Positions 2,229 to 58,036 of a DNA stretch of 64,000 bases are shown here, piece after piece (the first letter of the stretch is position 1; every line of letters begins with the position of its first letter). The notes beneath the pieces are model-generated. The model saw nothing but the letters and a program-made list of their open reading frames with translations. It did no database searches and had not been told where the DNA came from. This DNA is from Mya arenaria. Lineage: Eukaryota; Mollusca; Bivalvia; Myida; Myidae. Made by a program: the position numbers and the translations under genes. Location of the stretch: the NCBI RefSeq assembly GCF_026914265.1, contig NC_069124.1, forward strand, positions 5,668,213 through 5,732,212, read 5' to 3'.

Positions 2229-2426
2229 TCACAGATCACATGGGTGGACACCCACCACAGCATCGGCACAGGAAGTGTCTGCATGTGTGTCAGGTAATGT
2301 GAACACCCTACCACTCCCTGCACACACGCATAGCAGCATCTGCGTGCTGGAAGACTGGGAACCCTCTCCCTTTCCCTCCACCGGAAGAAACAGGCTCAAG
2401 TACACTTGGGAGTCCAAGACCACCTC
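2229..2426 (-). CDS. SGCB: SGCB exon 5: C-terminal cysteine cluster and stop
   Basis: The acceptor is TTTTAG; 65 codons then TGA at 2231-2229. LLCVCAGSGRVFTL corresponds to KLCMCADGTLFKV of human SGCB, followed by two further cysteines (TSC...HPC) and a short tail. The four-cysteine layout is the family's disulfide-linked C-terminus. The gap between the last two cysteines is three residues longer than in human. Confidence 0.88.
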   Translation of the reverse strand, partial: EVVLDSQVYLSLFLPVEGKGEGSQSSSTQMLLCVCAGSGRVFTLPDTHADTSCADAVVGVHPCDL

Positions 2427-8400: not shown

Positions 8401-11400
8401 TTCTGCTGTAGGCGGAAGTGTGTTCATAGTGTAAGGTTCTGCTGTAGGCGGAAGTACGTTCATAGTGTAAGGTTCTGCTGTAGGCGGAAGTGTGTTCATA
8501 GTGTAACGTTTGCTGTAGGCGGAAGTACGTTCATAGTGTAAGGTTTTGCTGTAGGCGGAAGTACGTTCATAGTGTAAGGTTCTGCTGTAGGCGGAAATGC
8601 GTTCATAGTGTAAGGTTCTGCTGTAGGCGGAAGTACGTTCATAGTGTAACGTTTGCTGTAGGCGGAAATGCGTTCATAGTACGTTGATGTACGTTGTAAT
8701 ATGCAAATTGGCATAGCTACTTCTCCGTGTGGAGGTTCAGGGCCTTTATATATAAGGGTTGAGCATGCTTTTCTCTGAAAGGAATCTGTTGCATATTTGG
8801 GCTCACACGTTACATTATTCTAACTACGAACATCCTGAATGCTCAATGAAACACAGGCTAAAACACCTTTATCTAAGGTTCAAATTCAATACATATAAAA
8901 AACAAACAAACTATGATTGGTATTCAAGTCCTAACACAAACCTCTTCTCCTTTAAAGACCAGATCCCTGTCACCCCTCCCCTCAATGTTGCTATGCAACA
9001 CCAGGTTGTCAACCGTTAGGTTAGATAGAACACGCACAGCACTCTCTCCAGTGAACAACTCCAGACTTGCCATGCCTTCATGGGTGATGGACAGGAAATA
9101 CAGAAGACCAGCTGTAACCTGGAGATATGATCAGTTTTCATAATTGGATAATTGTTTTAAAAAATAAAGTGATAATGTTACTCTGTTCATATATCAGCAG
9201 TCATCTGTTGTAGTTTTTAAACCTCACTACAGCTTCTTGGACTGGTTTGTGTTTAAAATGAGTAGAAAGACCAATGATTTTTTTTTATTTCTAACTGACA
9301 TATTTTTATTACATACAAGTGCAATTCCTACCATAAATATGAAAACTTTAAACTGTACTATTTGTACAGTTAAGTTTTTGGTCAATGCAAATGATTCATC
9401 ATGCATAAAATGTATGCTTACAACCATTAACATTCCAAAATATGTCAGGGCTATAACCTGTTTGGTTTACAGTATTCAAGGTAACCTGTGTGGTATACAG
9501 TACTCAAGGTAACCTGTGTGGTATACAGTACTCAAGGTAACCTGTGTGGTATACAGTACTCAAGGTAACCTGTGTGGTATACAGTACTCAAGGTAACCTG
9601 TGTGGTATACAGTACTCAAGGTAACCTGTGTGGTATACAGTACTCAAGGTAACCTGTGTGGTATACAGTACTCAAGGTAACCTGTGTGGTATACAGTACT
9701 CAAGGTAACCTGTGTGGTATACAGTACTCAAGGTAACCTGTGTGGTATACAGTACTCAAGGTAACCTGTGTGGTATACAGTACTCAAGGTAACCTGTGTG
9801 GTATACAGTACTCAAGGTAACCTGTGTGGTATACAGTACTCAAGGTAACCTGTGTGGTATACAGTACTCAAGGTACCCTGTGTGGTATACAGTACTCAAG
9901 GTAACCTGTGTGGTATACAGTATTCAAGGTAACCTGTGTGGTATACAGTATTCAAGGTAACCTGTGTGGTATACAGTACTCAAGGTAACCTGTGTGGTAT
10001 ACAGTACTCAAGGTAACCTGTGTGGTATACAGTACTCAAGGTAACCTGTGTGGTATACAGTACTCAAGGTAACCTGTGTGGTATACAGTACTCAAGGTAA
10101 CCTGTGTGGTATACAGTACTCAAGGTACCCTGTGTGGTATACAGTACTCAAGGTAACCTGTGTGGTATACAGTACTCAAGGAACCCTGTGTGGTATACAG
10201 TATTCAAGGTACCCTGTGTGGTATACGGTACTCAAGGTAACCTGTGTGGTATACAGTATTCAAGGTAACCTGTGTGGTATACAGTACTCAAGGAACCCTG
10301 TGTGGTATACAGTATTCAAGGTAACATGTGTGGTATACAGTACTCAAGGTACCCTGTGTGGTATACGGTACTCAAGGTACCCTGTGTGGTATACAGTATT
10401 CAAGGTAACCTGTGTGGTATACAGTATTCAAGGTAACCTGTGTAGTATACAGTATTCAAGGTACCCTGTGTGGTATACAGTACCCAAGGAACCCTGTGTG
10501 GTATACAGTATTCAAGGTAACCTGTGTGGTATACAGTACTCAAGGTACCCTGTGTGGTATACAGTACTCAAGGTAACCTGTGTGGTATACGGTACTCAAG
10601 GTAACCTGTGTGGTATACGGTACTCAAGGTACCCTGTGTGGTATACAGTATTCAAGGTACCCTGTGTGGTATACAGTACTCAAGGTAACCTGTGTAGTAT
10701 ACAGTACTCAAGGTAACCTGTGTGGTATACGGTACTCAAGGTACCCTGTGTGGTATACAGTACTCAAGGTAACCTGTGTGGTATACGGTACTCAAGGTAA
10801 CCTGTGTGGTATACAGTATTCAAGGTACCCTGTGTGGTATACAGTACTCAAGGTAACCTGTGTGGTATACAGTATTCAAGGTAACCTGTGTGGTATACAG
10901 TATTCAATGTAACCTGTTTGGTTTACAGTATTCAAGGTAACCTGTGTGGTATACAGTACTCAAGGTACCCTGTGTGGTATACAGTACTCAAGGTACCCTG
11001 TGTGGTATACAGTATTCAAGGTAACCTGTGTGGTATATAGTACTCAAGGTAACCTGTGTGGTATACAGTATTCAAGGTAACCTGTGTGGTATATAGTACT
11101 CAATGTAACCTGTGTGGTATACAGTACTCAATGTACAATGTGTGGTATACAGTACTCAAGGTACCCTGTGTGGTATACAGTATTCAAGGTAACCTGTGTG
11201 GTATACAGTATTCAAGGTAACCTGTGTGGTATATAGTACTCAAGGTACCATGTGTGGTATACAGTACTCAAGGTAACCTGTGTGGTTTACAGTACTCAAG
11301 GTAACCTGTGTGGTATACAGTATTCAAGGTAACCTGTGTGGTATACAGTATTCAAGGTAACCTGTGTGGTATACAGTACTCAAGGTACCCTGTGTGGTAT

Positions 11401-14400: not shown

Positions 14401-17400
14401 TACTCAAGGTAACTTGTGTGGTATACAGTATTCAATGTAACCTGAGTGGTATACAGTTCTCAAGGTAACCTGTGTGGTATACAGTATTCAAGGTAACCTG
14501 TGTGGTATACAGTACTCAAGGTACCCTGTGTGGTATACGGTACTCAAGGTAACCTGTGTGGTATACAGTATTCAAGGTAACCTGTGTGGTATACAGTACT
14601 CAAGGTAACCTGTGTGGTATACAGTATTCAAGGTAACCTGTGTGGTATACAGTACTCAAGGTACCCTGTGTGGTATACGGTACTCAAGGTAACCTGTGTG
14701 GTATACAGTATTCAAGGTAACCTGTGTGGTATACAGTACTCAAGGTAACCTGTGTGGTATACAGTATTCAAGGTAACCTGTGTGGTATACGGTACTCAAG
14801 GTAACCTGTGTGATATACAGTATTCAAGGTAACCTGTGTGGTATACAGTACTCAAGGTAACCTGTGTGGTATACAGTATTCAAGGTAACCTGTGTGATAT
14901 ATAGTACTCAAGGTAACCTGTGTGGTATACAGTACTCAAGGTAACCTGTGTGATATACAGTATTCAAGGTACCCTGTGTGGTATACAGTATACAAGGTAC
15001 CCTGTGTGGTATACAGTATTCAAGGTAACCTGTGTGGTAAACTGTATTCAAGGTGTACTCAAGGTAACCTGTGTGGTATACAGTACTCAAGGTAACCTGT
15101 GTGGTATACAGTATTCAAGGTAACCTGTGTGGTATACAGTACTCAAGGTAACCTGTGTGGTATACAGTATTCAAGGTAACCTGTGTGGTATACAGTATTC
15201 AAGGTAACCTGTGTGGTATACAGTACTCAAGGTAACCTGTGTGATATATAGTACTCAAGGTAACCTGTGTGGTATACGGTACTCAAGGTAACCTGTGTGG
15301 TATACAGTATTCAAGGTAACCTGTGTGGTATACAGTATTCAAGGTACCCTGTGTGGTATACAGTACTCAAGGTAACCTGTGTGGTATACAGTATTCAAGG
15401 TAACCTGTGTGGTATATAGTACTCAAGGTAACCTGTGTGGTATACAGTATTCAATGTACAATGTGTGGTATACAGTACTCAAGGTACCCTGTGTGGTATA
15501 CAGTATTCAAGGTAACCTGTGTGGTATATAGTACTCAAGGTAACCTGTGTGGTATACAGTATTCAAGGTAACCTGTGTGGTATATAGTACTCAAGGTAAC
15601 CTGTGTGGTATACAGTACTCAATGTACAATGTGTGGTATACAGTACTCAAGGTACCCTGTGTGGTATACAGTACTCAAGGTACCCTGTGTGGTATACAGT
15701 ACTCAAGGTAACCTGTGTGGTATACAGTACTCAAGGAACCCTGTGTGGTATACAGTATTCAAGGTACCCTGTGTGGTATACGGTACTCAAGGTAACCTGT
15801 GTGGTATACAGTATTCAAGGTAACCTGTGTGGTATACAGTACTCAAGGAACCCTGTGTGGTATACAGTATTCAAGGTAACATGTGTGGTATACAGTACTC
15901 AAGGAACCCTGTGTGGTATACAGTATTCAAGGTAACCTGTGTGGTATACGGTACTCAAGGTAACCTGTGTGGTATACAGTACTCAAGGTACCCTGTGTGG
16001 TATACGGTACTCAAGGAACCCTGTGTGGTATACAGTATTCAAGGTAACCTGTGTAGTATACAGTATTCAAGGTACCCTGTGTGGTATACAGTACTCAAGG
16101 AACCCTGTGTGGTATACAGTATTCAAGGTAACCTGTGTGGTATACAGTACTCAAGGTACCCTGTGTGGTATACAGTACTCAAGGTAACCTGTGTGGTATA
16201 CGGTACTCAAGGTAACCTGTGTGGTATACAGTACTCAAGGTACCCTGTGTGGTATACAGTATTCAAGGTACCCTGTGTGGTATACAGTACTCAAGGTAAC
16301 CTGTGTAGTATACAGTACTCAAGGTAACCTGTGTGGTATACGGTACTCAAGGTACCCTGTGTGGTATACAGTATTCAAGGTAACCTGTGTGGTATACGGT
16401 ACTCAAGGTAACCTGTGTAGTATACAGTACTCAAGGTACCCTGTGTGGTATACAGTACTCAAGGTACCCTGTGTGGTATACAGTATTCAAGGTAACCTGT
16501 GTGGTATATAGTACTCAAGGTAACCTGTGTGGTATACAGTATTCAAGGTAACCTGTGTGGTATATAGTACTCAATGTAACCTGTGTGGTATACAGTACTC
16601 AATGTACAATGTGTGGTATACAGTTCTCAAGGTACCCTGTGTGGTATACAGTATTCAAGGTAACCTGTGTGGTATACAGTATTCAAGGTAACCTGTGTGG
16701 TATATAGTACTCAAGGTACCATGTGTGGTATACAGTACTCAAGGTAACCTGTGTGGTTTACAGTACTCAAGGTAACCTGTGTGGTATACAGTATTCAAGG
16801 TAACCTGTGTGGTATACAGTATTCAAGGTAACCTGTGTGGTATACAGTACTCAAGGTACCCTGTGTGGTATACAGTACTCAAGGTAACCTGTGTGGTATA
16901 CAGTACTCAAGGTAACCTGTGTGATATATAGTACTCAAGGTAACCTGTGTGGTATACGGTACTCAAGGTAACCTGTGTGGTATATAGTACTCAATGTAAC
17001 CTGTGTGGTATACAGTACTCAATGTAACCTGTGTGGTATACGGTACTCAAGGTAACCTGTGTGGTATACGGTACTCAAGGTAACCTGTGTGGTATATAGT
17101 ACTCAATGTAACCTGTGTGGTATACAGTACTCAAGGTAACCTGTGTGGTATACAGTACTCAAGGAACCCTGTGTGGTATACAGTATTCAAGGTAACCTGT
17201 GTGGTATACAGTAATCAAGGTAACCTGTGTGGTATACAGTACTCGAGGAACCCTGTGTGGTATACAGTATTCAAGGTAACCTGTGTGGTATACAGTATTC
17301 AAGGTAACCTGTGTGGTATACAGTACTCAAGGTACCCTGTGTGGTATACAGTATTCAAGGTAACCTGTGTGGTATACAGTATTCAAGGTAACCTGTGTGG

Positions 17401-20400
17401 TATACAGTACTCAAGGTAACCTGTGTGGTATACAGTACTCAAGGTAACCTGTGTGATATATAGTACTCAAGGTAACCTGTGTGGTATACGGTACTCAAGG
17501 TAACCTGTGTGGTATACAGTACTCAAGGTAACCTGTGTGGTATACAGTATTCAAGGTAACCTGTGTGATATATAGTACTCAAGGTACCCTGTGTGGTATA
17601 CAGTACTCAAGGAACCCTGTGTGGTATACAGTATTCAAGGTAACCTGTGTGGTATACAGTATTCAAGGTAACCTGTGTGGTATACAGTACTCAAGGAACC
17701 CTGTGTGGTATACAGTATTCAAGGTAACCTGTGTGGTATACAGTATTCAAGGTAACCTGTGTGGTATACAGTACTCAAGGTAACCTGTGTGGTATACAGT
17801 ACTTAAGGTAACCTGTGTGGAATACAGTATTCAATGTGACCTGTGTGGTTTACAGTATTCAAGGTAACCCGTGTGGTATACGGTACTCAAGGTACCCTGT
17901 GTGGTATACAGTACTCAAGGTAACCTGTGTGGTTTACAGTATACAAGGTAACCCGTGTGGTATACGGTACTCAAGGTACCCTGTGTGGTATACAGTACTC
18001 AAGGTAACCTGTGTGGTATACAGTATACAAGGTAACCCGTGTGGTATACAGTACTCAAGGTACCCTGTGTGGTATACAGTATTCAAGGTAACCTGTGTGG
18101 TATACAGTATTCAAGGTAACCTGTGTGGTATACAGTATTCAAGGTACCCTGTGTGGTTTACAGTACTCAAGGTAACCTGTGTAGTATACAGTACTCAAGG
18201 TAACCTGTGTGGTATACAGTAATCAAGGTACCCTGTGTGGTTTACAGTACTCAAGGTAACCTGTGTGGTTTACAGTACTCAAGGTAACCTGTGTAGTATA
18301 CAGTACTCAAGGTAACCTGTGTAGTATACAGTACTCAAGGTACCCTGTGTGGTATACAGTATTCAAGGTACCCTGTGTGGTATACAGTATTCAAGGTACC
18401 CTGTGTGGTATACAGTATTCAATGTAACCTGTGTGGTATACAGTATTCAAGGTTACCTGTGTGGTATACGGTACTCAAGGTAACCTGTGTGGTATACAGT
18501 ACTCAAGGTACCCTGTGTGGTATACAGTATTCAAGGTACCCTGTGTGGTATACAGTACTCAAGGAACCCTGTGTGGTATACAGTATTCAAGGTAACCTGT
18601 GTGGTATACAGTATTCAAGGTACCCTGTGTGGTTTACAGTACTCAAGGTAACCTGTGTAGTATACAGTACTCAAGGAACCCTGTGTGGTTTACAGTATTC
18701 AAGGTAACCTGTGTGGTATACAGTATTCAAGGTACCCTGTGTGGTTTACAGTACTCAAGGTAACCTGTGTAGTATACAGTACTCAAGGTAACCTGTGTGG
18801 TTTACAGTACTCAAGGTAACCTGTGTAGTATACAGTACTCAAGGTAACCTGTGTAGTATACAGTACTCAAGGTACCCTGTGTGGTATACAGTATTCAAGG
18901 TACCCTGTGTGGTATACAGTATTCAAGGTACCCTGTGTGGTATACAGTATTCAATGTAACCTGTGTGGTATACAGTATTCAAGGTTACCTGTGTGGTATA
19001 CAGTATTCAAGGTAACCTGTGTGATATATAGTACTCAAGGTACCCTGTGTGGTATACAGTACTCAAGGAACCCTGTGTGGTATACAGTATTCAAGGTAAC
19101 CTGTGTGGTATACAGTATTCAAGGTAACCTGTGTGGTATACAGTACTCAAGGAACCCTGTGTGGTATACAGTATTCAAGGTAACCTGTGTGGTATACAGT
19201 ATTTAAGGTAACCTGTGTGGTATACAGTACTCAAGGTACCCTGTGTGGTATACAGTACTCAAGGTAACCTGTGTGGTTTACAGTATACAAGGTAACCCGT
19301 GTGGTATACGGTACTCAAGGTACCCTGTGTGGTATACAGTACTCAAGGTAACCTGTGTGGTATACAGTATACAAGGTAACCCGTGTGGTATACAGTATTC
19401 AAGGTACCCTGTGTGGTATACAGTATTCAAGGTAACCTGTGTGGTATACAGTATTCAAGGTAACCTGTGTGGTATACAGTATTCAAGGTACCCTGTGTGG
19501 TTTACAGTACTCAAGGTAACCTGTGTAGTATACAGTACTCAAGGTAACCTGTGTGGTATACAGTATTCAAGGTACCCTGTGTGGTTTACAGTACTCAAGG
19601 TAACCTGTGTAGTATACAGTACTCAAGGTAACCTGTGTGGTTTACAGTACTCAAGGTAACCTGTGTAGTATACAGTACTCAAGGTAACCTGTGTAGTATA
19701 CAGTACTCAAGGTACCCTGTGTGGTATACAGTATTCAAGGTACCCTGTGTGGTATACAGTATTCAAGGTACCCTGTGTGGTATACAGTATTCAATGTAAC
19801 CTGTGTGGTATACAGTATTCAAGGTTACCTGTGTGGTATACGGTACTCAAGGTAACCTGTGTGGTATACAGTACTCAAGGTACCCTGTGTGGTATACAGT
19901 ACTCAAGGTACCCTGTGTGGTATACAGTACTCAAGGTACCCTGTGTGGTATACAGTACTCAAGGTAACCTGTGTGGTATACAGTATTCAAGGTAACCTGT
20001 GTGATATATAGTACTCAAGGTACCCTGTGTGGTATACAGTACTCAAGGAACCCTGTGTGGTATACAGTATTCAAGGTAACCTGTGTGGTATACAGTATTC
20101 AAGGTAACCTGTGTGGTATACAGTACTCAAGGAACCCTGTGTGGTATACAGTATTCAAGGTAACCTGTGTGGTATACAGTATTTAAGGTAACCTGTGTGG
20201 TATACGGTACTCAAGGTACCCTGTGTGGTATACAGTACTCAAGGTAACCTGTGTGGTTTACAGTATACAAGGTAACCCGTGTGGTATACGGTACTCAAGG
20301 TACCCTGTGTGGTATACAGTACTCAAGGTAACCTGTGTGGTATACAGTATACAAGGTAACCCGTGTGGTATACAGTATTCAAGGTACCCTGTGTGGTATA

Positions 20401-23400
20401 CAGTATTCAAGGTAACCTGTGTGGTATACAGTATTCAAGGTAACCTGTGTGGTATACAGTATTCAAGGTACCCTGTGTGGTTTACAGTACTCAAGGTAAC
20501 CTGTGTAGTATACAGTACTCAAGGTACCCTGTGTGGTATACAGTATTCAAGGTAACCTGTGTGGTTTACAGTACTCAAGGTAACCTGTGTAGTATACAGT
20601 ACTCAAGGTAACCTGTGTAGTATACAGTACTCAAGGTACCCTGTGTGGTATACAGTATTCAAGGTACCCTGTGTGGTATACAGTATTCAAGGTACCCTGT
20701 GTGGTATACAGTATTCAATGTAACCTGTGTGGTATACAGTATTCAAGGTTACCTGTGTAGTATACGGTACTCAAGGTAACCTGTGTGGTATACAGTACTC
20801 AAGGTACCCTGTGTGGTATACAGTACTCAAGGTACCCTGTGTGGTATACAGTACTCAAGGTACCCTGTGTGGTATACAGTACTCAAGGTACCCTGTGTGG
20901 TATACAGTATTCAAGGTAACCTGTGTGGTATACAGTATTCAAGGTACCCTGTGTGGTATACAGTACTCAAGGTACCCTGTGTGGTATACAGTACTCAAGG
21001 TACCCTGTGTGGTATACAGTATTCAAGGTACCCTGTGTGGTATACAGTATTCAATGTAACCTGTGTGATATACAGTATTCAAGGTACCCTGTGTGGTATA
21101 CAGTACTCAAGGTACCCTGTGTGGTATACAGTATTCAAGGTAACCTGTGTGGTATACAGTATTCAAGGTACCCTGTGTGGTATACAGTACTCAAGGTACC
21201 CTGTGTGGTATACAGTACTCAAGGTACCCTGTGTGGTATACAGTATTCAAGGTACCCTGTGTGGTATACAGTATTCAATGTAACCTGTGTGATATACAGT
21301 ATTCAAGGTACCCTGTGTGGTATACAGTACTCAAGGTACCCTGTGTGGTATACAGTATTCAAGGTAACCTGTGTGGTATACAGTATTCAAGGTAACCTGT
21401 GTGGTATACGGTACTCAAGGTAACCTGTGTGGTATACAGTACTCAAGGTAACCTGTGTGGTATACGGTACTCAAGGTAACCTGTGTGGTATACAGTACTC
21501 AAGGTAACCTGTGTGGTATACGGTACTCAAGGTAACCTGTGTGATATACAGTATTCAAGGTACCCTGTGTGGTATACAGTATTCAAGGTAACCTGTGTGG
21601 TATACAGTACTCAAGGTAACCTGTGTGGTATACAGTATTCAAGGTAACCTGTGTGGTATACGGTACTCAAGGTAACCTGTGTAGTATACAGTATTCAAGG
21701 TAACCTGTGTGGTATACAGTATTCAAGGTAACCTGTGTGGTATACAGTACTCAAGGTAACCTGTGTGGTATACGGTACTCAAGGTAACCTGTGTGATATA
21801 CAGTATTCAAGGTACCCTGTGTGGTTTACAGTACTCAAGGTAACCTGTGTGGTATACAGTACTCAAGGTACCCTGTGTGGTATACAGTACTCAAGGTACC
21901 CTGTGTGGTATACAGTACTCAAGGTAACCTGTGTGGTATATAGTACTCAAGGTAACCTGTGTGGTATACAGTACTCAAGGTAACCTGTGTGGTATACAGT
22001 ACTCAAGGTAACCCTGTGTGGTATACAGTATTCAAGGTAACCTGTGTGGTATACAGTACTCAAGGTAACCTGTGTGATATACAGTATTCAAGGTAACCTG
22101 TGTGGTATACAGTATTCAAGGTAACCTGTGTGGTATACAGTATTCAAGGTAACCTGTGTGGTATACAGTATTCAAGGTACCCTGTGTGGTATACAGTACT
22201 CAAGGTAACCTGTGTGGTATACGGTACTCAAGGTAACCTGTGTGGTATACAGTACTCAAGGTAACCTGTGTGGTATACAGTACTCAAGGTACCCTGTGTG
22301 GTATACAGTACTCAAGGTAACCTGTGTGGTATACAGTATTCAAGGTAACCTGTGTGGTATACAGTACTCAAGGTAACCTGTGTGGTATACAGTACTCAAG
22401 GTAACCTGTGTGATATATAGTACTCAAGGTAACCTGTGTGGTATACAGTACTCAAGGTACCCTGTGTGGTATACAGTATTCAAGGTAACCTGTGTGGTAT
22501 ACAGTATTCAAGGTAACCTGTGTGGTATACAGTACTCAAGGTAACCTGTGTGGTATACAGTACTCAAGGTAACCTGTGTGATATATAGTACTCAAGGTAA
22601 CCTGTGTGGTATACGGTACTCAAGGTAACCTGTGTGGTATACAGTACTCAAGGTAACCTGTGTGGTATACAGTATTCAAGGTAACCTGTGTGATATATAG
22701 TACTCAAGGTACCCTGTGTGGTATACAGTACTCAAGGAACCCTGTGTGGTATACAGTATTCAAGGTAACCTGTGTGGTATACAGTATTCAAGGTAACCTG
22801 TGTGGTATACAGTACTCAAGGAACCCTGTGTGGTATACAGTATTCAAGGTAACCTGTGTGGTATACAGTATTCAAGGTAACCTGTGTGGTATACAGTACT
22901 CAAGGTTACCTGTGTGGTATACAGTACTTAAGGTAACCTGTGTGGAATACAGTATTCAATGTGACCTGTGTGGTTTACAGTATTCAAGGTAACCCGTGTG
23001 GTATACGGTACTCAAGGTACCCTGTGTGGTATACAGTACTCAAGGTAACCTGTGTGGTTTACAGTATACAAGGTAACCCGTGTGGTATACGGTACTCAAG
23101 GTACCCTATGTGGTATACAGTACTCAAGGTAACCTGTGTGGTATACAGTATACAAGGTAACCCGTGTGGTATACAGTACTCAAGGTACCCTGTGTGGTAT
23201 ACAGTATTCAAGGTAACCTGTGTGGTATACAGTATTCAAGGTAACCTGTGTGGTATACAGTATTCAAGGTACCCTGTGTGGTTTACAGTACTCAAGGTAA
23301 CCTGTGTAGTATACAGTACTCAAGGTAACCTGTGTGGTATACAGTAATCAAGGTACCCTGTGTGGTTTACAGTACTCAAGGTAACCTGTGTGGTTTACAG

Positions 23401-26400
23401 TACTCAAGGTAACCTGTGTAGTATACAGTACTCAAGGTAACCTGTGTAGTATACAGTACTCAAGGTACCCTGTGTGGTATACAGTATTCAAGGTACCCTG
23501 TGTGGTATACAGTATTCAAGGTACCCTGTGTGGTATACAGTATTCAATGTAACCTGTGTGGTATACAGTATTCAAGGTTACCTGTGTGGTATACGGTACT
23601 CAAGGTAACCTGTGTGGTATACAGTACTCAAGGTACCCTGTGTGGTATACAGTATTCAAGGTACCCTGTGTGGTATACAGTACTCAAGGAACCCTGTGTG
23701 GTATACAGTATTCAAGGTAACCTGTGTGGTATACAGTATTCAAGGTACCCTGTGTGGTTTACAGTACTCAAGGTAACCTGTGTAGTATACAGTACTCAAG
23801 GAACCCTGTGTGGTTTACAGTATTCAAGGTAACCTGTGTGGTATACAGTATTCAAGGTACCCTGTGTGGTATACAGTACTCAAGGTAACCTGTGTAGTAT
23901 ACAGTACTCAAGGTAACCTGTGTGGTTTACAGTACTCAAGGTAACCTGTGTAGTATACAGTACTCAAGGTAACCTGTGTAGTATACAGTACTCAAGGTAC
24001 CCTGTGTGGTATACAGTATTCAAGGTACCCTGTGTGGTATACAGTATTCAAGGTACCCTGTGTGGTATACAGTATTCAATGTAACCTGTGTGGTATACAG
24101 TATTCAAGGTTACCTGTGTGGTATACAGTATTCAAGGTAACCTGTGTGATATATAGTACTCAAGGTACCCTGTGTGGTATACAGTACTCAAGGAACCCTG
24201 TGTGGTATACAGTATTCAAGGTAACCTGTGTGGTATACAGTATTCAAGGTAACCTGTGTGGTATACAGTACTCAAGGAACCCTGTGTGGTATACAGTATT
24301 CAAGGTAACCTGTGTGGTATACAGTATTTAAGGTAACCTGTGTGGTATACAGTACTCAAGGTACCCTGTGTGGTATACAGTACTCAAGGTAACCTGTGTG
24401 GTTTACAGTATACAAGGTAACCCGTGTGGTATACGGTACTCAAGGTACCCTGTGTGGTATACAGTACTCAAGGTAACCTGTGTGGTATACAGTATACAAG
24501 GTAACCCGTGTGGTATACAGTATTCAAGGTACCCTGTGTGGTATACAGTATTCAAGGTAACCTGTGTGGTATACAGTATTCAAGGTAACCTGTGTGGTAT
24601 ACAGTATTCAAGGTACCCTGTGTGGTTTACAGTACTCAAGGTAACCTGTGTAGTATACAGTACTCAAGGTAACCTGTGTGGTATACAGTATTCAAGGTAC
24701 CCTGTGTGGTTTACAGTACTCAAGGTAACCTGTGTAGTATACAGTACTCAAGGTAACCTGTGTGGTTTACAGTACTCAAGGTAACCTGTGTAGTATACAG
24801 TACTCAAGGTAACCTGTGTAGTATACAGTACTCAAGGTACCCTGTGTGGTATACAGTATTCAAGGTACCCTGTGTGGTATACAGTATTCAAGGTACCCTG
24901 TGTGGTATACAGTATTCAATGTAACCTGTGTGGTATACAGTATTCAAGGTTACCTGTGTGGTATACGGTACTCAAGGTAACCTGTGTGGTATACAGTACT
25001 CAAGGTACCCTGTGTGGTATACAGTACTCAAGGTACCCTGTGTGGTATACAGTACTCAAGGTACCCTGTGTGGTATACAGTACTCAAGGTAACCTGTGTG
25101 GTATACAGTATTCAAGGTAACCTGTGTGATATATAGTACTCAAGGTACCCTGTGTGGTATACAGTACTCAAGGAACCCTGTGTGGTATACAGTATTCAAG
25201 GTAACCTGTGTGGTATACAGTACTCAAGGAACCCTGTGTGGTATACAGTATTCAAGGTAACCTGTGTGGTATACAGTATTTAAGGTAACCTGTGTGGTAT
25301 ACGGTACTCAAGGTACCCTGTGTGGTATACAGTACTCAAGGTAACCTGTGTGGTTTACAGTATACAAGGTAACCCGTGTGGTATACGGTACTCAAGGTAC
25401 CCTGTGTGGTATACAGTACTCAAGGTAACCTGTGTGGTATACAGTATACAAGGTAACCCGTGTGGTATACAGTATTCAAGGTACCCTGTGTGGTATACAG
25501 TATTCAAGGTAACCTGTGTGGTATACAGTATTCAAGGTAACCTGTGTGGTATACAGTATTCAAGGTACCCTGTGTGGTTTACAGTACTCAAGGTAACCTG
25601 TGTAGTATACAGTACTCAAGGTACCCTGTGTGGTATACAGTATTCAAGGTAACCTGTGTGGTTTACAGTACTCAAGGTAACCTGTGTAGTATACAGTACT
25701 CAAGGTAACCTGTGTGGTTTACAGTACTCAAGGTAACCTGTGTAGTATACAGTACTCAAGGTAACCTGTGTAGTATACAGTACTCAAGGTACCCTGTGTG
25801 GTATACAGTATTCAAGGTACTCTGTGTGGTATACAGTATTCAAGGTACCCTGTGTGGTATACAGTATTCAATGTAACCTGTGTGGTATACAGTATTCAAG
25901 GTTACCTGTGTAGTATACGGTACTCAAGGTAACCTGTGTGGTATACAGTACTCAAGGTACCCTGTGTGGTATACAGTACTCAAGGTACCCTGTGTGGTAT
26001 ACAGTACTCAAGGTACCCTGTGTGGTATACAGTACTCAAGGTACCCTGTGTGGTATACAGTATTCAAGGTAACCTGTGTGGTATACAGTACTCAAGGTAC
26101 CCTGTGTGGTATACAGTACTCAAGGTACCCTGTGTGGTATACAGTACTCAAGGTACCCTGTGTGGTATACAGTATTCAAGGTACCCTGTGTGGTATACAG
26201 TATTCAATGTAACCTGTGTGATATACAGTATTCAAGGTACCCTGTGTGGTATACAGTACTCAAGGTACCCTGTGTGGTATACAGTATTCAAGGTAACCTG
26301 TGTGGTATACAGTATTCAAGGTACCCTGTGTGGTATACAGTACTCAAGGTACCCTGTGTGGTATACAGTACTCAAGGTACCCTGTGTGGTATACAGTATT

Positions 26401-29400
26401 CAAGGTACCCTGTGTGGTATACAGTATTCAATGTAACCTGTGTGATATACAGTATTCAAGGTACCCTGTGTGGTATACAGTACTCAAGGTACCCTGTGTG
26501 GTATACAGTATTCAAGGTAACCTGTGTGGTATACAGTATTCAAGGTAACCTGTGTGGTATACGGTACTCAAGGTAACCTGTGTGGTATACAGTACTCAAG
26601 GTAACCTGTGTGGTATACGGTACTCAAGGTAACCTGTGTGGTATACAGTACTCAAGGTAACCTGTGTGGTATACGGTACTCAAGGTAACCTGTGTGATAT
26701 ACAGTATTCAAGGTACCCTGTGTGGTATACAGTATTCAAGGTAACCTGTGTGGTATACAGTACTCAAGGTAACCTGTGTGGTATACAGTATTCAAGGTAA
26801 CCTGTGTGGTATACGGTACTCAAGGTAACCTGTGTAGTATACAGTATTCAAGGTAACCTGTGTGGTATACAGTATTCAAGGTAACCTGTGTGGTATACAG
26901 TACTCAAGGTAACCTGTGTGGTATACGGTACTCAAGGTAACCTGTGTGATATACAGTATTCAAGGTACCCTGTGTGGTTTACAGTACTCAAGGTAACCTG
27001 TGTGGTATACAGTACTCAAGGTACCCTGTGTGGTATACAGTACTCAAGGTACCCTGTGTGGTATACAGTACTCAAGGTAACCTGTGTGGTATATAGTACT
27101 CAAGGTAACCTGTGTGGTATACAGTACTCAAGGTAACCTGTGTGGTATACAGTACTCAAGGTACCCTGTGTGGTATACAGTATTCAAGGTAACCTGTGTG
27201 GTATACAGTACTCAAGGTAACCTGTGTGATATACAGTATTCAAGGTAACCTGTGTGGTATACAGTATTCAAGGTAACCTGTGTGGTATACAGTATTCAAG
27301 GTAACCTGTGTGGTATACAGTATTCAAGGTACCCTGTGTGGTATACAGTACTCAAGGTAACCTGTGTGGTATACGGTACTCAAGGTAACCTGTGTGGTAT
27401 ACAGTACTCAAGGTAACCTGTGTGGTATACAGTACTCAAGGTACCCTGTGTGGTATACAGTACTCAAGGTAACCTGTGTGGTATACAGTACTCAAGGTAA
27501 CCTGTGTGGTATACAGTATTTAAGGTACAATGTGTGGTATACATTACTCAAGGTACCCTGTGTGGTATACAGTATTCAAGGTACCCTGTGTGGTATACAT
27601 TACTCAAGGTACCCTGTGTGGTATACAGTATTCAAGGTACCCTGTGTGGTATATAGTATTCAAGGTAACCTGTGTGGTATACAGTATTCAAGGTAACCTG
27701 TGTGGTATACAGTATTCAAGGTAACCTGTGTGGTATACAGTATTCAAGGTACCCTGTGTGGTATATAGTATTCAAGGTACCCTGTGTTGTATATAGTACT
27801 CAAGGTACCCTGTGTGGTATACAGTACTCAAGGTACCTTGTGTGGTATACAGTACTCAAGGTAACTTGTGTGGTATACAGTACTCAAGGTACCCTGTGTG
27901 GTATACAGTATTCAAGGTACCTTGTGTGGTATACAGTATTCAAGGTACCCTGTGTGGTATACAGTACTCAAGGTACCCTGTGTGGTATACAGTACTCAAG
28001 GTACCCTGTGTGGTATACAGTATTCAAGGTACCCTGTGTGGTATACAGTACTCAAGGTAACCTGTGTGGTATACAGTATTCAAGGTACCCTGTGTGGTAT
28101 ACAGTACTCAAGGTACCCTGTGTGGTATACAGTACTCAAGGTACCCTGTGTGGTATACAGTATTCAAGGTACCCTGTGTGGTATACAGTACTCAAGGTAA
28201 CCTGTGTGGTATACAGTATTCAAGGTACCCTGTGTGGTATACAGTATTCAAGGTAACCTGTGTGGTATACAGTATTCAAGGTAACCTGTGTGGTATACAG
28301 TATTCAAGGTACCCTGTGTGGTATACAGTATTCAAGGTAACCTGTGTGGTATACAGTATTCAAGGTACCCTGTGTGGTATACGGTACTCAAGGTAACCTG
28401 TGTGGTATACAGTATTCAAGGTAACCTGTGTGGTATACGGTACTCAAGGTAACCTGTGTGGTATACAGTACTCAAGGTACCCTGTGTGGTATACGGTACT
28501 CAAGGTACCCTGTGTAGTATACAGTATTCAAGGTAACCTGTGTGGTATACAGTACTCAAGGTACCCTGTGTGGTATACGGTACTCAAGGTAACCTGTGTG
28601 GTATATAGTACTCAAGGTAAACTGTGTGGTATACAGTATTCAAGGTACCCTGTGTGGTATACGGTACTCAAGGTACCCTGTGTGGTATATAGTACTCAAG
28701 GTAAACTGTGTGGTATACAGTATTCAAGGTAACCTGTGTGGTATACAGTATTCAAGGTAACCTGTGTGGTATACAGTATTCAAGGTAACCTGTGTGGTAT
28801 ACAGTATTCAAGGTAACCTGTGTAGTATACAGTATTCAAGGTACCCTGTGTGGTATACAGTATTCAAGGTAACCTGTGTGGTATACAGTACTCAAGGTAA
28901 CCTGTGTGGTATACAGTACTCAAGGTAACCTGTGTGGTATACAGTACTCAAGGTACCCTGTGTGGTATACAGTACTCAAGGTAACCTGTGTAGTATACAG
29001 TACTCAAGGTACCCTGTGTGGTATACAGTACTCAAGGTACCCTGTGTGGTATACAGTACTCAAGGTAACCTGTGTGGTATACAGTATTCAAGGTAACCTG
29101 TGTGGTATACAGTACTCAAGGTAACCTGTGTGGTATACAGTACTCAAGGTAACCTGTGTGGTATACAGTACTCAAGGTACCCTGTGTGATATACAGTACT
29201 CAAGGTACCCTGTGTGGTATACAGTATTCAAGGTAACCTGTGTGGTATACAGTATTCAAGGTACCCTGTGTGGTATACAGTACTCAAGGTACCCTGTGTG
29301 GTATACAGTATTCAAGGTACCCTGTGTGATATACAGTACTCAAGGTACCCTGTGTGGTATACAGTATTCAAGGTAACCTGTGTGGTATACAGTACTCAAG

Positions 29401-32400
29401 GTACCCTGTGTGGTATACAGTATTCAAGGTAACCCGTGTGGTATACAGTACTCAAGGTAACCTGTGTGGTATACAGTATTCAAGGTACCCTGTGTGGTAT
29501 ACAGTATTCAAGGTACCCTGTGTGGTATACAGTACTCAAGGTACCCTGTGTGGTATACAGTACTCAAGGTACCCTGTGTGGTATACAGTACTCAAGGTAA
29601 CCTGTGTGGTATACAGTACTCAAGGAACCCTGTGTGGTATACAGTACTCAAGGTAACCTGTGTAGTATACAGTACTCAAGGTACCCTGTGTGGTATACAG
29701 TACTCAAGGTAACCTGTGTGGTATACAGTACTCAAGGTAACCTGTGTGGTATACAGTACTCAAGGTACCCTGTGTGGTATACAGTACTCAAGGTACCCTG
29801 TGTGGTATACAGTACTCAAGGTACCCTGTGTGGTATACAGTATTCAAGGTAACCTGTGTGGTATACAGTATTCAAGGTAACCTGTGTGGTATATAGTACT
29901 CAAGGTAACCTGTGTGATATACAGTATTCAAGGTACCCTGTGTGGTATACAGTATTCAAGGTAACCTGTGTGGTATACAGTATTCAAGGTAACCTGTGTG
30001 GTATACAGTACTCAAGGTACCCTGTGTGGTATACAGTACTCAAGGTAACCTGTGTGGTATACAGTACTCAAGGTACCCTGTGTGGTATACAGTACTCAAG
30101 GTACCCTGTGTGGTATACAGTATTCAAGGTACCCTGTGTGATATATAGTACTCAAGGTAACCTGTGTGGTATACGGTACTCAAGGTAACCTGTGTGGTAT
30201 ACAGTATTCAAGGTAACCTGTGTGGTATACAGTACTCAAGGTAACCTGTGTAGTATACGGTATTCAAGGTAACCTGTGTGGTATACAGTATTCAAGGTAA
30301 CCTGTGTGGTATACGGTACTCAAGGTAACCTGTGTGGTATACAGTACTCAAGGTAACCTGTGTGGTATACGGTACTCAAGGTAACCTGTGTGATATACAG
30401 TATTCAAGGTAACCTGTGTGGTATACAGTATTCAAGGTAACCTGTGTGGTATACAGTACTCAAGGTAACCTGTGTGGTATACAGTATTCAAGGTAACCTG
30501 TGTGGTATACGGTACTCAAGGTAACCTGTGTAGTATACAGTATTCAAGGTAACCTGTGTGGTATACAGTATTCAAGGTAACCTGTGTGGTATACAGTACT
30601 CAAGGTAACCTGTGTGGTATACGGTACTCAAGGTAACCTGTGTGATATACAGTATTCAAGGTACCCTGTGTGGTATACAGTACTCAAGGTAACCTGTGTG
30701 GTATATAGTATTCAAGGTACCCTGTGTGATATACAGTACTCAAGGTAACCCGTGTGGTATACGGTACTCAAGGTACCCTGTGTGGTATACAGTATTCAAG
30801 GTAACCCGTGTGGTATACGGTACTCAAGGTACCCTGTGTGGTATACAGTATTCAAGGTAACCTGTGTGGTATACAGTACTCAAGGTAACCTGTGTGGTAT
30901 ATAGTATTCAAGGTAACCCGTGTGGTATACAGTACTCAAGGTAACCCGTGTGGTATACAGTACTCAAGGTAACCTGTGTGGTATACAGTACTCAAGGTAA
31001 CCTGTGTGGTATACAGTACTCAAGGTACCCTGTGTGGTATACAGTACTCAAGGTAACCTGTGTGGTATACAGTACTCAAGGTACCCTGTGTGGTATACAG
31101 TACTCAAGGTAACCTGTGTGGTATACAGTATTCAAGGTAACCTGTGTGGTATACAGTATTCAAGGTACTCTGTGTGGTATACAGTGCTCAAGGTAACCTG
31201 TGTGGTATACAGTATTCAAGGTAACCTGTGTAGTATACAGTATTCAAGGTAACCTGTGTGTTATACAGTACTCAAGGTAACCTGTGTGGTATACAGTACT
31301 CAAGGTAACCTGTGTGGTATACAGTATTCAAGGTACCCTGTGTGGTATACAGTATACAAGGTACCCTGTGTGGTATACAGTATTCAAGGTAACCTGTGTG
31401 GTAAACTGTATTCAAGGTGTACTCAAGGTAACCTGTGTGGTATACAGTACTCAAGGTAACCTGTGTGGTATACAGTATTCAAGGTAACCTGTGTGGTATA
31501 CAGTACTCACGGAAAGCTGTGTGGTATACAGTACTCAAGGTAACCTGTGTGGTATACAGTACTCAGGGCAACCTGTGTGGTAAACTGTATTCAAGGTGTA
31601 CTCAAGGTAACCTGTGTGGTTTACAGTACTCAAGGAACCTGTGTGGTATACAGTACTCAAGGTAACCCGTGTGGTATACAGTACTCAAGGTAACCTGTGT
31701 GGTATACAGTACTCAAGGTAACTTGTGTGGTATACAGTACTCAAGGTAACCTGTGTGGAATACAGTACTCCAGGTAACCTGTGTGGTATTTAGTACTCAA
31801 GGTAACCTGTGTGGTATACAGTACTCAAGGTAACCTGTGTGGTATACAGTACTCAAGGTAACCTGTGTGATATACAGTACTCAAGGTACCCTGTGTGGTA
31901 TACAGTACTCAAGGTAACCTGTGTGGTATACAGTATTCAAGGTACCCTGTGTGGTATACAGTATTCAAGGTAACCTGTGTGATATATAGTACTCAAGGTA
32001 ACCTGTGTGGTATACAGTACTCAAGGTAACCTGTGTGGTATACAGTATTCAAGGTAACCTGTGTGGTATACAGTACTCAAGGTAACCTGTGTAGTATACA
32101 GTATTCAAGGTAACCTGTGTGGTATACAGTATTCAAGGTAACCTGTGTGGTATACGGTACTCAAGGTAACCTGTGTGGTATACAGTACTCAAGGTAACCT
32201 GTGTGGTATACGGTACTCAAGGTAACCTGTGTGGTATACAGTACTCAAGGTAACCTGTGTGGTATACGGTACTCAAGGTAACCTGTGTGATATACAGTAT
32301 TCAAGGTACCCTGTGTGGTATACAGTATTCAAGGTAACCTGTGTGGTATACAGTACTCAAGGTAACCTGTGTGGTATACAGTATTCAAGGTAACCTGTGT

Positions 32401-35121
32401 GGTATACAGTACTCAAGGTAACCTGTGTAGTATACAGTATTCAAGGTAACCTGTGTGGTATACAGTACTCAAGGTAACCTGTGTGGTATACAGTACTCAA
32501 GGTAACCTGTGTGGTATACGGTACTCAAGGTAACCTGTGTGGTATACGGTACTCAAGGTAACCTGTGTGATATACAGTATTCAAGGTACCCTGTGTGGTA
32601 TACAGTACTCAAGGTAACCTGTGTGGTATATAGTATTCAAGGTACCCTGTGTGATATACAGTACTCAAGGTAACCCGTGTGGTATACAGTACTCAAGGTA
32701 ACCTGTGTGGTATACAGTACTCAAGGTAACCTGTGTGGTATACAGTACTCAAGGTACCCTGTGTGGTATACAGTACTCAAGGTAACCTGTGTGGTATACA
32801 GTACTCAAGGTAACCTGTGTGGTATACAGTACTCAAGGTAACCTGTGTGGTATACAGTATTCAAGGTAACCTGTGTGGTATACAGTATTCAAGGTACTCT
32901 GTGTGGTAAACAGTGCTCAAGGTAACCTGTGTGGTATACAGTATTCAAGGTAACCTGTGTAGTATACAGTATTCAAGGTAACCTGTGTGGTATACAGTAC
33001 TCAAGGTAACCTGTGTGGTATACAGTACTCAAGGTAACCTGTGTGGTATACAGTATTCAAGGTACCCTGTGTGGTATACAGTATACAAGGTACCCTGTGT
33101 GGTATACAGTATTCAAGGTAACCTGTGTGGTAAACTGTATTCAAGGTGTACTCAAGGTAACCTGTGTGGTATACAGTACTCAAGGTAACCTGTGTGGTAT
33201 ACAGTATTCAAGGTAACCTGTGTGGTATACAGTACTCACGGAAACCTGTGTGGTATACAGTACTCAAGGTAACCTGTGTGGTATACAGTACTCAGGGCAA
33301 CCTGTGTGGTAAACTGTATTCAAGGTGTACTCAAGGTAACCTGTGTGGTTTACAGTACTCAAGGAACCTCTGTGGTATACAGTACTCAAGGTAACCCGTG
33401 TGGTATACAGTACTCAAGGTAACCTGTGTGGTATACAGTACTCAAGGTAACTTGTGTGGTATACAGTACTCAAGGTAACCTGTGTGGAATACAGTACTCC
33501 AGGTAACCTGTGTGGTATTTAGTACTCAAGGTAACCTGTGTGGTATACAGTACTTAAGGTAACCTGTGTGGTATACAGTACTCAAGGTAACCTGTGTGGT
33601 ATACGGTACTCAAGGTAACCTGTGTGGTATACAGTACTCAAGGAACCCTGTGTGGTATACAGTACTCAAGGAACCCTGTGTGGTATACAGTACTCAAGGA
33701 ACCCTGTGTGGTATACAGTATTCAAGGTAACCTGTGTGGTATACAGTATTCAAGGTAACCTGTGTGGTATATAGTACTCAAGGAACCCTGTGTGGTATAC
33801 AGTACTCAAGGAACCCTGTGTGGTATACAGTATTCAAGGTAACCTGTGTGGTATATAGTACTCAAGGTAACCTGTGTGGTATATAGTACTCAAGGTACCC
33901 TGTGTGGTATACAGTACTCAAGGAACCCTGTGTGGTATACAGTATTCAAGGTAACCTGTGTGGTATACAGTACTCAAGGAACCCTGTGTGGTATACAGTA
34001 TTCAAGGTAACCTGTGTGGTATACAGTACTCAAGGTACCCTGTGTGGTATACAGTATTCAAGGTAACCTGTGTGGTATACAGTATTCAAGGTAACCTGTG
34101 TGATATACAGTATTCAAGGTAACCTGTGTGGTATACAGTACTCAAGGTACCCTGTGTGATATACAGTATTCAAGGTACCCTGTGTGGTATACAATACTCA
34201 AGGTAACCTGTGTGGTATACAGTATTCAAGGTAACCTGTGTGGTATACAGTACTCAAGGTAACCTGTGTGGTATACGGTACTCAAGGTACCCTGTGTGGT
34301 ATACAGTATTCAAGGTAACCTGTGTGGTATACAGTACTCAAGGTACCCTGTGATGTATAGAGTATTCGAGGTAACCTGTGTGGTATACGGTACTCAATGT
34401 AACCTGTGTGGTATACAGTACTCAAGGTAACCTGTGTGGTATACAGTATTCAAGGTAACCTGTGTGGTATACAGTATTCAAGGATTTCTTATGGACTACT
34501 CAGAACTTGTATGTAAGACTGAAGAAGTGGTTGTCCTGTTAGCGCACTGGTTAGCGCACTCGCTTCTCACTAAGGCAACCCAGGTTCGATTCCCGACCTG
34601 GGCACATGTGAGTTTGGTAAGTGGTTACCAAGCCAGACATGTGGATTTCTCCGGGTACTCTGGTTTCCCCCACAACCACAAGACCTCACATTCGTGCAAC
34701 ATGTGCCAACGAGAGTGACATAGTATAAGCTATCATAGCTTTCCTCACAATCGTTGTAAAATATATTATGTTTAAACTTAGACTGAAGAGGTTGGTATGC
34801 AGATCTTCAAATCTGAAATTATTTTAAATGCAGACTCTCGAATTGTTAATTATTATCTGCTACACCAGATCAGACAGAGATTGAAGGAATATTTTGTACA
34901 CAACGGGGACAAGTCATACACATATGTATCATTATCCTTACCAGTGCATTCAACACAGCCACCAGAAAAAGAAGTGTAATTACGATCCATAGACAGCAGC
35001 TCCTGCCTCCACGTAGACCAGTCTGCTCATAATCATCCTCATCCACCAATATATAACCATCGGCCTGGCTACTGGAGGGTCGGGTTGAACGATGGCGAAG
35101 TGTCACTTGGTCGTCCGCCAT
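2229..35121 (-). CDS. SGCB: Beta-sarcoglycan, complete five-exon gene
   Basis: The sarcoglycan complex is part of the dystrophin-associated assembly that ties the muscle membrane to the extracellular matrix. Coding exons in order are 35121-34942, 9118-8938, 3778-3627, 2946-2806 and 2426-2229, giving 283 codons (human SGCB has 318). The predicted type II membrane protein has a cytosolic N-terminus with GYILVDEDDYEQTGLRG (residues 22-38), matching the conserved GYIPIDED..KTGLRG region of SGCB. A membrane span covers about 42-70, split by intron 1. A beta-rich ectodomain with an NLT glycosylation site follows. The C-terminus carries a four-cysteine cluster (CVC, then two more), as in SGCB. Phases are 0, 1, 0, 0. 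The exon 2 donor needed for phase agreement (GTGTTA at 8937) is weak. A better-looking GTTTGT donor four bases earlier would break the frame. Introns 1 and 2 (25.8 and 5.2 kb) are filled by minisatellites. No disabling change was seen. Confidence 0.88.
2806..2946 (-). CDS. SGCB: SGCB exon 4: ectodomain
   Basis: The exon has 47 codons, acceptor TTTCTTCAG and donor AAG|GTGATG, phase 0-0. DLHIESDQITQMIGTEGVDF and the following GADLNLQAK correspond to the DLNIKVDGRAIVRGNEGVFI and GNMELKAEN segments of SGCB with no gap. This is the clearest family match among the ectodomain exons. Confidence 0.88.
3384..3545 (+). repeat. Dispersed repeat, copy 1
   Basis: This diverged interspersed repeat lies in SGCB intron 3. 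It shares an ordered set of blocks with 55619-55797: CAGTGTTCA, GCCAGCCAAAAT-like, GGTTgAAATGGCAA..GGCC.GTT.AAATTTGGAAA, and TAAAGTTATTG.GAA. No termini or coding capacity were recognised. Confidence 0.5.
3627..3778 (-). CDS. SGCB: SGCB exon 3: ectodomain
   Basis: The exon is 152 nt with acceptor TTATAG and a consensus GTAAGT donor after GCT. The peptide SVLLTGGQFELW...GKPLFST aligns by eye with TSITSDIGMQFFDPRTQNILFST of human SGCB. It enters in phase 1 and leaves in phase 0. The acceptor has a poor pyrimidine tract, so an upstream AG in the same frame (after ATGCC) cannot be excluded. Confidence 0.85.
4053..4487. mobile_element. Fold-back / MITE-like element with arms over 100 bp
   Basis: The left end TGATAAATTGTGTCATAA is the near-exact reverse complement of the right end (TATGACATAATTTATCA at 4487). 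Pairing extends inward: ACTTCACTATTTC and the following TTTTAAATGAAAC..AG.GCAGTCTA.GC stretch reappear inverted near 4360-4405. The central 150 bp is unpaired. There is no coding capacity and no clear target duplication. Confidence 0.7.
4999..5837. mobile_element. Non-autonomous DNA transposon inserted in the minisatellite
   Basis: Terminal inverted repeats CAGGGTTCAAATTTA and TAAATTCGAACCCTG bound 839 bp, flanked by the direct repeat CCTTT (4994-4998 and 5838-5842). Removing the element restores a normal repeat junction (GTAACCTTTGCTGTAG), which supports the boundaries. Subterminal GCGAGT/ACTCGC motifs recur at both ends. The CAGGG ends resemble hAT elements, but hAT usually duplicates 8 bp, so the superfamily is uncertain. 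No transposase frame is present. Confidence 0.82.
5222..5243 (+). repeat. Poly-G tract, 22 bases
   Basis: An uninterrupted run of 22 G lies inside the transposon at 4999-5837. It could form quadruplex structure. Its exact length is likely unreliable because such runs are hard to sequence. Confidence 0.9.
8938..9118 (-). CDS. SGCB: SGCB exon 2: end of membrane span and proximal ectodomain
   Basis: The acceptor is CTCCAG at 9119. Translation VTAGLLYFLSI completes the membrane span from exon 1. GMASLELFTGE and NLVLHSN follow, resembling the GLLRFKQ...ENLVITGN stretch of human SGCB. SNLTVDN carries an N-glycosylation sequon. The donor is ambiguous: GAG|GTTTGT (exon end 8942, phase 0) looks better, but only GTT T|GTGTTA (exon end 8938, phase 1) joins exon 3 in frame. 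Confidence 0.85.
17300..27550. repeat. Two adjacent about 5.1-kb higher-order copies within the 28-bp array
   Basis: The order of variant units in 17.30-22.42 kb recurs in 22.43-27.55 kb. The shift is 5125 bp (183 units + 1) across the first 2.3 kb, then 5097 and 5153 bp after gain or loss of one or two units. The odd base is the 29-bp unit near 22012. An older relative of the block occupies about 10.2-14 kb, at shifts of 5471 to 5695 bp. Inside each block, shorter repeats of 980 bp (35 units) and 224 bp (8 units) recur. Confidence 0.85.
31284..33560. repeat. 1729-bp tandem duplication with truncated units
   Basis: The stretch beginning 31284 recurs at 33013. The 1729-bp shift equals sixty 28-bp units plus two 11-bp remnants and one 27-bp unit. 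Diagnostic features present in both copies are GTGTGGTAAACTGTATTC followed by the 11-bp remnant, ACTCACGGAAA, CTCAGGGCAACC, and GTGGTATTTAGTAC. The same 11-bp remnant context also occurs once at about 14920-15123. Confidence 0.85.
34534..34760 (+). mobile_element. tRNA-derived SINE with conserved central domain
   Basis: A tRNA-like head carries an A-box-like TAGCGCACTGG and a B box GGTTCGATTCC, followed by a CCCGACCTGGGCA arm. The body includes TTTCTCCGGGTACTCTGG and TTTCCCCCACAA, a central domain I recall from metazoan SINEs (probably the Meta-domain group of bivalves). It lies about 50 bp from the right edge of the 28-bp array and in plus orientation, antisense to SGCB. The 3' end is approximate. 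Confidence 0.8.
34942..35121 (-). CDS. SGCB: SGCB exon 1: start codon, cytosolic tail, half of the membrane span
   Basis: Sixty codons run from MADDQVTLRH to the CTG before a strong GTAAGG donor (phase 0). Residues 22-38 hold the sarcoglycan juxtamembrane motif with an acidic DEDD run. Residues 42-60 are the first part of the hydrophobic span (WIVITLLFLVAVLNAL). The start is the first ATG of the frame and gives a short polar N-terminus. Confidence 0.88.
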
Positions 35122-37260: not shown

Positions 37261-37390
37261 ATGAACAAAGAACAGCAGCTGCATCTTGCAGTGAAGGACA
37301 ATGATGTTTCGACAGTGGAGTCCCTGTTGATAGCTGGGGTTGACATTAACTGTCTGTTTTATGGATGGACACCATTACAATATGCTATTA
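37261..37390 (+). CDS. Ankyrin gene exon 1
   Basis: The ATG lies five bases after a TTCTTCAG acceptor. MNKEQQLHLAVKDNDVSTVE begins repeat 1, and GWTPLQYAI starts repeat 2. The donor is A|GTTTGG, phase 1. The open frame continues past the donor but becomes hydrophobic AT-rich intron sequence. Confidence 0.78.
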
Positions 37391-53468: not shown

Positions 53469-53687
53469 CTGTAATAAATCAACGATTTAGTGATTAACCT
53501 ATTTCTATCTAGAGGTATCTTTCAAAGGCTTTTGAACAAACAAACACTGTTTAAAATCCAAATGATAAAAAAGTCACTTGAACGATCTTATAATATGAAT
53601 TAAGGCGGTGCCTCTACGGGCGTGAAGTATTATTGCCGGACACTATACTGTTAAAATTTACTAAATGACTAATAGTCATTAAGTAAA

Positions 53688-57249: not shown

Positions 57250-58036
57250 AAACAAAATGGCGTCCAATGTTCACTTAAAATTAAGTTCATTGTAGCGTGA
57301 AATGCGGATTAATATATTTAAATTTCATTCCATAAATATTTAGTTTAAGCTATACTTTGTGAATTTGTCGGGTGAAATACCTCCTTAAAAGACAAAAAAG
57401 CAGTTTGCTACATACTTTATTGCAGAGTAATGAAATATACTTTCCTATCAAATGTAAAATTATTTTGAATGCATATCCATATATGGAAGTGCCGATCTAA
57501 AAAGGTACATGTACCTTGGGTGTTTCTCGGGCATTGATTTTCATTGGTTAAAGGCCTAGTTTAAGGAATGTTTGGAATGATAATCCCCTGCTGTGCATCT
57601 TCTGCTAATTGCACTGGTGTCACAGAAGAGGCCAATTTCCTGTGTATTCGTTTATTGGCTCAGGGCCATTTAGGGACCATTTTTATAATAAAACATTGAA
57701 AACTGCACAGCAGGATACTCAGATTGGAGATCTGATAAGCCAATTAAGCAATACGATTAAGATCTTTTTTTTTTCTTTTTTTTTAATTTATTTATTTATT
57801 ATTTTTTTTTTTTGGGGGGGGGTTCACTTATAGAAGGCTTAAACTAGGTTAAAACCCGCCCAAAACATGTACAATTTGCTTTCCGGCCTGCACGCGCTGA
57901 TTCAAGCCCGTATCAACACTCATTGTGTTTGTAACTATGAACCAGGGGAACTTGTCACTACATATATATTATAAACATATTTATGTATTTATTCATGTTT
58001 TTGTTGCATTAAATTGGTGTAACATATTACGTGTAC
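57250..58036. other. Non-coding interval below the last sushi exon
   Basis: It includes a 70-bp T-rich tract ending in a G run (57763-57823). No membrane-spanning exon for the sushi protein was recognised here, so the C-terminus of that gene remains unplaced. Confidence 0.5.

Follow-up and report, generated by a model that had tools for sequence, protein, structure and literature searches.

How did a muscle-complex gene come to carry about 25 kb of a single tandem repeat between its first two coding exons, and does the repeat matter to the gene? These questions arise from a stretch of 64,000 nucleotides of Mya arenaria DNA (the window), in which a beta-sarcoglycan (SGCB) gene contains an array of 28-bp units. 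The explanation that we favour, with a probability of about 85%, is that a single-locus minisatellite grew in situ and inflated an old SGCB intron, that it is spliced out with this intron and that its length is probably polymorphic.

The beta-sarcoglycan gene and its first coding intron

The gene lies on the minus strand and comprises six coding exons, which join to one frame of 292 amino acids ending in a stop codon; all five introns run GT..AG. Exon 1 (34942..35121, 180 nt) extends from the ATG to codon 60, and exon 2 (8942..9118, 177 nt, donor GTTTGT) encodes the remaining membrane span and the start of the ectodomain. Both are in phase 0, with the donor GTAAGG and the acceptor TCTCCAG between them, in agreement with the matching phase described in the initial annotation. 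The limit given there for exon 2 (9118-8938) had to be corrected, since the last base is 8942 and the earlier call was four bases too long. The joined frame continues through exon 3 (4599..4629, 31 nt), exon 4 (3627..3778), exon 5 (2806..2946) and exon 6, which contains the stop codon (2229..2426).

Searched against Pfam, the protein matched Sarcoglycan_1 (E=3.7e-33, residues 33-273), and inspection by eye places one membrane span near the sarcoglycan N-terminus. The best solved chain was beta-sarcoglycan (9c3c_b, E=2.5e-15, 60 bits), followed by weaker matches to delta (1e-07, 34.9 bits) and gamma (2e-06, 30.7 bits). Judged by these match scores, the predicted product is a beta-type sarcoglycan, with delta and gamma as more distant matches. 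Across the whole genome (1,216,080,610 bp in 18 contigs of one haploid assembly), the protein gave five matches at E≤0.01, which correspond to exons 1, 2, 4, 5 and 6 of this same gene, exon 1 having a single match; thus, no alternative partner for exon 1 or exon 2 was found at E≤0.01. The 31-nt exon 3 was not recovered, and no second gene copy was found by this search at the same threshold. A stop inside the genomic exon-6 match is the first codon of the match and is intronic by the exon coordinates. The view of the initial annotation that exons 1 and 2 form part of one gene is well founded, given the single open frame, the agreeing phases and one Pfam domain across both.

The array-bearing intron is the first coding intron, counted from the exon at 35121 (9119..34941, minus strand, 25,823 bp, GT..AG, phase 0). 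Codon 60, the end of exon 1, aligns ungapped to residue 81 of the 318-residue solved beta-sarcoglycan chain. In a report on human SGCB, the variant c.243+6T>A is assigned to intron 2 (PMC13221219), which places the end of human exon 2 at c.243, the last base of codon 81. If the numbering of the solved chain is that of the human protein, as we assumed, the clam intron agrees with human SGCB intron 2 in codon position and in phase 0; this vertebrate comparison covers the array-bearing intron only. The shared position and phase support the predicted splice junction 34941-9119, and they suggest that the intron predates the array, i.e. that an old intron was later inflated. Without the array, the intron measures 793 bp, so that a conserved beta-sarcoglycan intron of ~0.8 kb would have expanded ~33-fold to 25.8 kb.

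Make-up and growth of the 28-bp array

The array occupies 25,030 bp (9454..34483) or 96.9% of the intron; arrays, their blocks and the tRNA-like repeat described below are given on the plus strand. TRF called the same interval with a period of 28 and 894 copies, whereas wrap-around alignment resolved 892 monomers in 86 variants, with a mean identity of 95.3% to the consensus TAACCTGTGTGGTATACAGTACTCAAGG. These measurements agree closely with the ~97% and ~890 copies of one 28-bp repeat noted earlier. The monomer register is almost without indels: 884/892 monomers are 28 bp long, and the others have 27 bp (two), 29 bp (one) or 39 bp (five). There is no N in the window, and the array is gapless.

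When up to three mismatches were allowed, the consensus had 883 matches in the window and 883 in the genome, all on the forward strand, and the 157 genome copies of the exact unit equal the 157 in the array. The agreement of the two counts indicates that, at ≤3 mismatches, the unit occurs in this intron and nowhere else in the assembly. In 100 dinucleotide shuffles, no consensus match was found at this tolerance. The array therefore falls within the unit size (roughly 10-100 bp) and the single-locus distribution of a minisatellite or VNTR. No known coding or RNA family was recognised within it; no Rfam family was matched in the window at gathering scores, and ARAGORN found no tRNA there. The longest open stretches within it measure 58-68 codons on the gene strand and 167-223 codons on the opposite strand and, since 28 is not divisible by 3, a single reading frame passes through the unit in each of the three phases.

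Comparison of monomers and blocks revealed several layers of duplication. The youngest block duplication found consists of block A (17299..22417, 5.1 kb) and the adjoining block B (22424..27597), which show 10 mismatches in 5,090 aligned bases (0.20%) and four length differences (28, 56, 1 and 28 bp). Older copies are represented by 10900..12298 and its partner 16371-17769 (10/1,399 bases, 0.71%) and by 31200-32399 versus 32929-34100 (37/1,172 bases, 3.2%). Aligned over a greater length, 9454-16900 and 14690-22417 show 3.9% mismatches and 17 gaps; a shorter gap-free piece was preferred as evidence. Block copies keep a common order of variants. Between monomers at lags 1-40, the divergence is 6.5-7.3%. 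Neighbours are slightly more alike than shuffled monomers (exact identity 0.129 at lag 1 vs 0.088, sd 0.008), and exact identity peaks at lag 183 with 0.212 (709 pairs; 0.088 shuffled); lags 769-848 reach 0.145-0.200, with 44-123 pairs only. At the edge adjoining exon 2, a homogeneous stretch (9482..9873) contains a run of 14 identical monomers, compared to a largest run of 8 in 1000 shuffles. A regular dimeric or trimeric higher-order repeat had been suggested by higher TRF scores at 56 and 84 bp; exact identities of 0.129, 0.110, 0.142 and 0.150 at lags 1-4 reject a strong short period.

Overall, the array is partly young and grew partly through block duplication. Unequal exchange or conversion may have duplicated whole blocks of up to 5.1 kb, single monomers would have been gained and lost alongside, and the edge next to exon 2 would have been homogenised by a recent spread. 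As the youngest 5.1-kb block is only 0.20% diverged, array length is likely to vary between individuals. A paper on what is likely this species describes bivalve heterozygosity as high; together with the 0.2% divergence, this would probably make the block duplication younger than many alleles.

The same blocks give some weight to the assumption that the array is real but that its 25-kb length, chiefly the 5.1-kb duplicate, reflects an expansion during assembly, which would agree with in situ growth in all but size. Long tandem blocks that are 99.8% identical are hard for noisy long reads, and the likely source assembly combined PacBio reads, FALCON-Unzip and 10x polishing. However, the array contains no gaps; besides 10 substitutions, gains or losses of whole monomers and one single base distinguish the two blocks; and the array also contains older copies with divergences of 0.7% and 3.2%. 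Subtracting the youngest block would leave ~20 kb, and we regard an artefact of assembly as unlikely.

Tandem repeats were sampled by drawing 10 kb at each of 20 places, with all 17 large contigs represented (200 kb, including 4,602 bases N). TRF arrays with a period of at least 7 cover 14.7% of the non-N sample. Among 60 merged arrays, 26 are at least 300 bp and 8 at least 1 kb long (in 7/20 stretches), and the longest measures 3,120 bp; the 25-kb array is ~8x this length, although 10-kb stretches are too short to show 25 kb whole. The genome is thus rich in minisatellites, and the 28-bp array is extreme in size but ordinary in kind. The term "megarepeat" in the initial annotation makes the array seem more novel than it is, as arrays of 1-3.1 kb occur in the sample and minisatellites with units of similar length are known from abalone and human genes.

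Among known systems, the VNTR of human ABCA7, which we take to be intronic, offers one parallel. This likewise gene-borne minisatellite has 25-bp units with frequent substitutions and alleles of ~12 to >400 units (PMC6857246); it reaches slightly more than 10 kb at most, compared to 25 kb in the clam, and is GC-rich and disease-associated. In abalone, intron 3 of a TSSK1-like gene carries a polymorphic 27-bp minisatellite whose copy number varies among individuals (PMC6905558). The abalone repeat is likewise molluscan, intronic and of near-equal unit length, but comprises 62 repeats compared to 892, resides in another gene and has a unit that appears unrelated by eye. Against this background, the clam array belongs to a familiar class of DNA, the intronic minisatellite, of which it represents a large and, in part, recently grown case. 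New observations are that the 28-bp unit is private to one intron, that growth was partly block-wise, and that the neighbouring 36-bp array is instead dispersed. Among literature titles on bivalve intron minisatellites, Mya arenaria repeats and sarcoglycan minisatellites, none reports the array.

Transcription, splicing and possible functions

Under in situ growth, the array is most likely transcribed and then spliced out as part of the intron, and its expansion may have been neutral. The Drosophila Y genes kl-3 and kl-5 also have satellite-filled introns, which are gigantic (PMC6508621). As in the clam, a coding gene with largely tandem-repeat introns has to be transcribed and spliced; in Drosophila, however, the introns are of megabase size with 5-bp satellites, and the testis expression of the genes needs the RNA-binding proteins Blanks and Heph. 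With 25.8 kb, the clam intron is far below the megabase scale of Drosophila Y intron gigantism, and it is not known to depend on a dedicated factor.

It is conceivable that the long intron is functional, either by timing or dampening beta-sarcoglycan expression or through an action of its CAG|GT repeats on splicing. Besides the location in a muscle-complex gene, a strand bias in the array could be read in this way: CAGGT occurs 555 times on its sense strand and twice on the opposite strand. In 504/555 cases the site is CAGGTTACC, a weak donor-like sequence with a crude donor score of 6/9, which equals two of the five real donors (range 6 to 8), and only 2.3% of random local 28-mers contain CAGGT. 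No other feature of the array would agree with a splicing effect. On the other hand, no array site reaches a donor score of 8 or 9, compared to nine such sites in 25 kb of local control sequence. The hexamers AATAAA and ATTAAA are absent from the array (0 vs 72 in a 25 kb control), but 92.5% of random 28-bp units also lack polyadenylation hexamers. In both cases, little can be concluded from one unit examined post hoc.

The proposals of the initial annotation that the repeat delays expression or nucleates RNA structure or chromatin found no support. One 280-nt array piece folds at -0.248 kcal/mol per base on the sense strand, which is inside the spread of 20 local controls (-0.264 to -0.154). 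The antisense strand gives -0.320 kcal/mol per base, outside this range, but all controls come from the minus strand at 39-64 kb and are less GC-rich. Moreover, because the array is partly young and the intron position is old, the gene most likely worked before the array existed. Nothing found demands a function, and we consider a functional role improbable.

Slightly less probable still is an active length switch, in which multi-kb block duplications and deletions would segregate in the clam population and alter the time or efficiency of SGCB splicing, with CAG|GT sites on the sense strand, hundreds in number and 28 bases apart, serving as decoy donors. The locus is a clean natural case of a conserved intron inflated by a repeat that the rest of the assembly lacks, and the next intron contains a dispersed repeat. 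If length alleles segregate, they would allow a direct test of what a 10-25 kb intronic repeat costs a muscle gene, and a hypervariable locus could mark Mya arenaria individuals as well as transmissible cancer lineages.

Neighbouring repeats and the origin of the array

The adjacent intron 2 contains a second minisatellite with 35/36-bp units, which is split by an inserted element into a longer part (5842..8680) and a short far-side part (4809..4998). Its 36-bp unit has 284 matches in the genome, 83 in the window and 201 outside. The intron-2 array is therefore of other origin than the 28-bp array: both are minisatellites, but the former (4809-8680) is a split member of a dispersed repeat family, whereas the latter is built from a private unit. 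The inserted element (4999..5837, ~839 bp) has inverted ends CAGGGTTCRAATTTA and is flanked by CCTTT on both sides, the ends and the duplication having been read by eye. A 286-bp query on the element end gave 836 first-look candidates; the 40 that were scored comprise the query itself and 39 copies at 92-97% identity, 36/39 of which stop at query base 278-282, corresponding to window positions 5837-5841.

A further dispersed repeat (34540..34700) lies within ~57 bp of the 28-bp array. It is tRNA-like and carries the B box GGTTCGATTCC, and it is probably a tRNA-derived SINE. Used as a query, it returned 3100 first-look candidates, and the 40 scored were itself and 39 copies at 87-90% identity; its ends as given here are those of the query and not of the element.

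These neighbours are the main reason to ask if the 28-bp array could have been copied from a satellite with dispersed loci or brought in by a mobile element, as one adjacent array has relatives across the genome and a dispersed tRNA-like repeat lies close to the array edge. However, the equal genome and window counts show no 28-bp unit elsewhere at ≤3 mismatches, by which a dispersed satellite family with many loci was rejected, and the 40 bases on each side of the array contain no direct flank duplication of more than 5 bp. We therefore consider such an origin very improbable. That the exons near 35 kb and 9 kb belong to different genes can practically be dismissed, given one open frame over six exons with agreeing phases, one Pfam domain over both, no other genomic partner of either exon at E≤0.01 and the human-matching intron position.

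A third array in the window, with 27-bp units (37757-38279), is nearly private, 19/22 genome matches being in place. Its unit and the 28-bp unit both hold TGTGTGGTAT (p=0.002 in one of six comparisons). The array is open in three plus frames (211, 198 and 183 codons) and one minus frame (198 codons). It would sit between exons of a gene divergent from beta-sarcoglycan, as open stretches on the plus strand at 37231-42271 appear ankyrin-repeat-like by eye. Within this region, TRF also detected a tandem repeat with a 160-bp period (40941-41430), which resembles the old bivalve satellite BIV160 in length. Further along the window, a 350-codon open stretch (53676-54728) resembles by eye the C-terminal part of a LINE-type reverse transcriptase, and open stretches on the minus strand of 57993-61882 show repeated cysteine patterns that look, by eye, like sushi/CCP domains.
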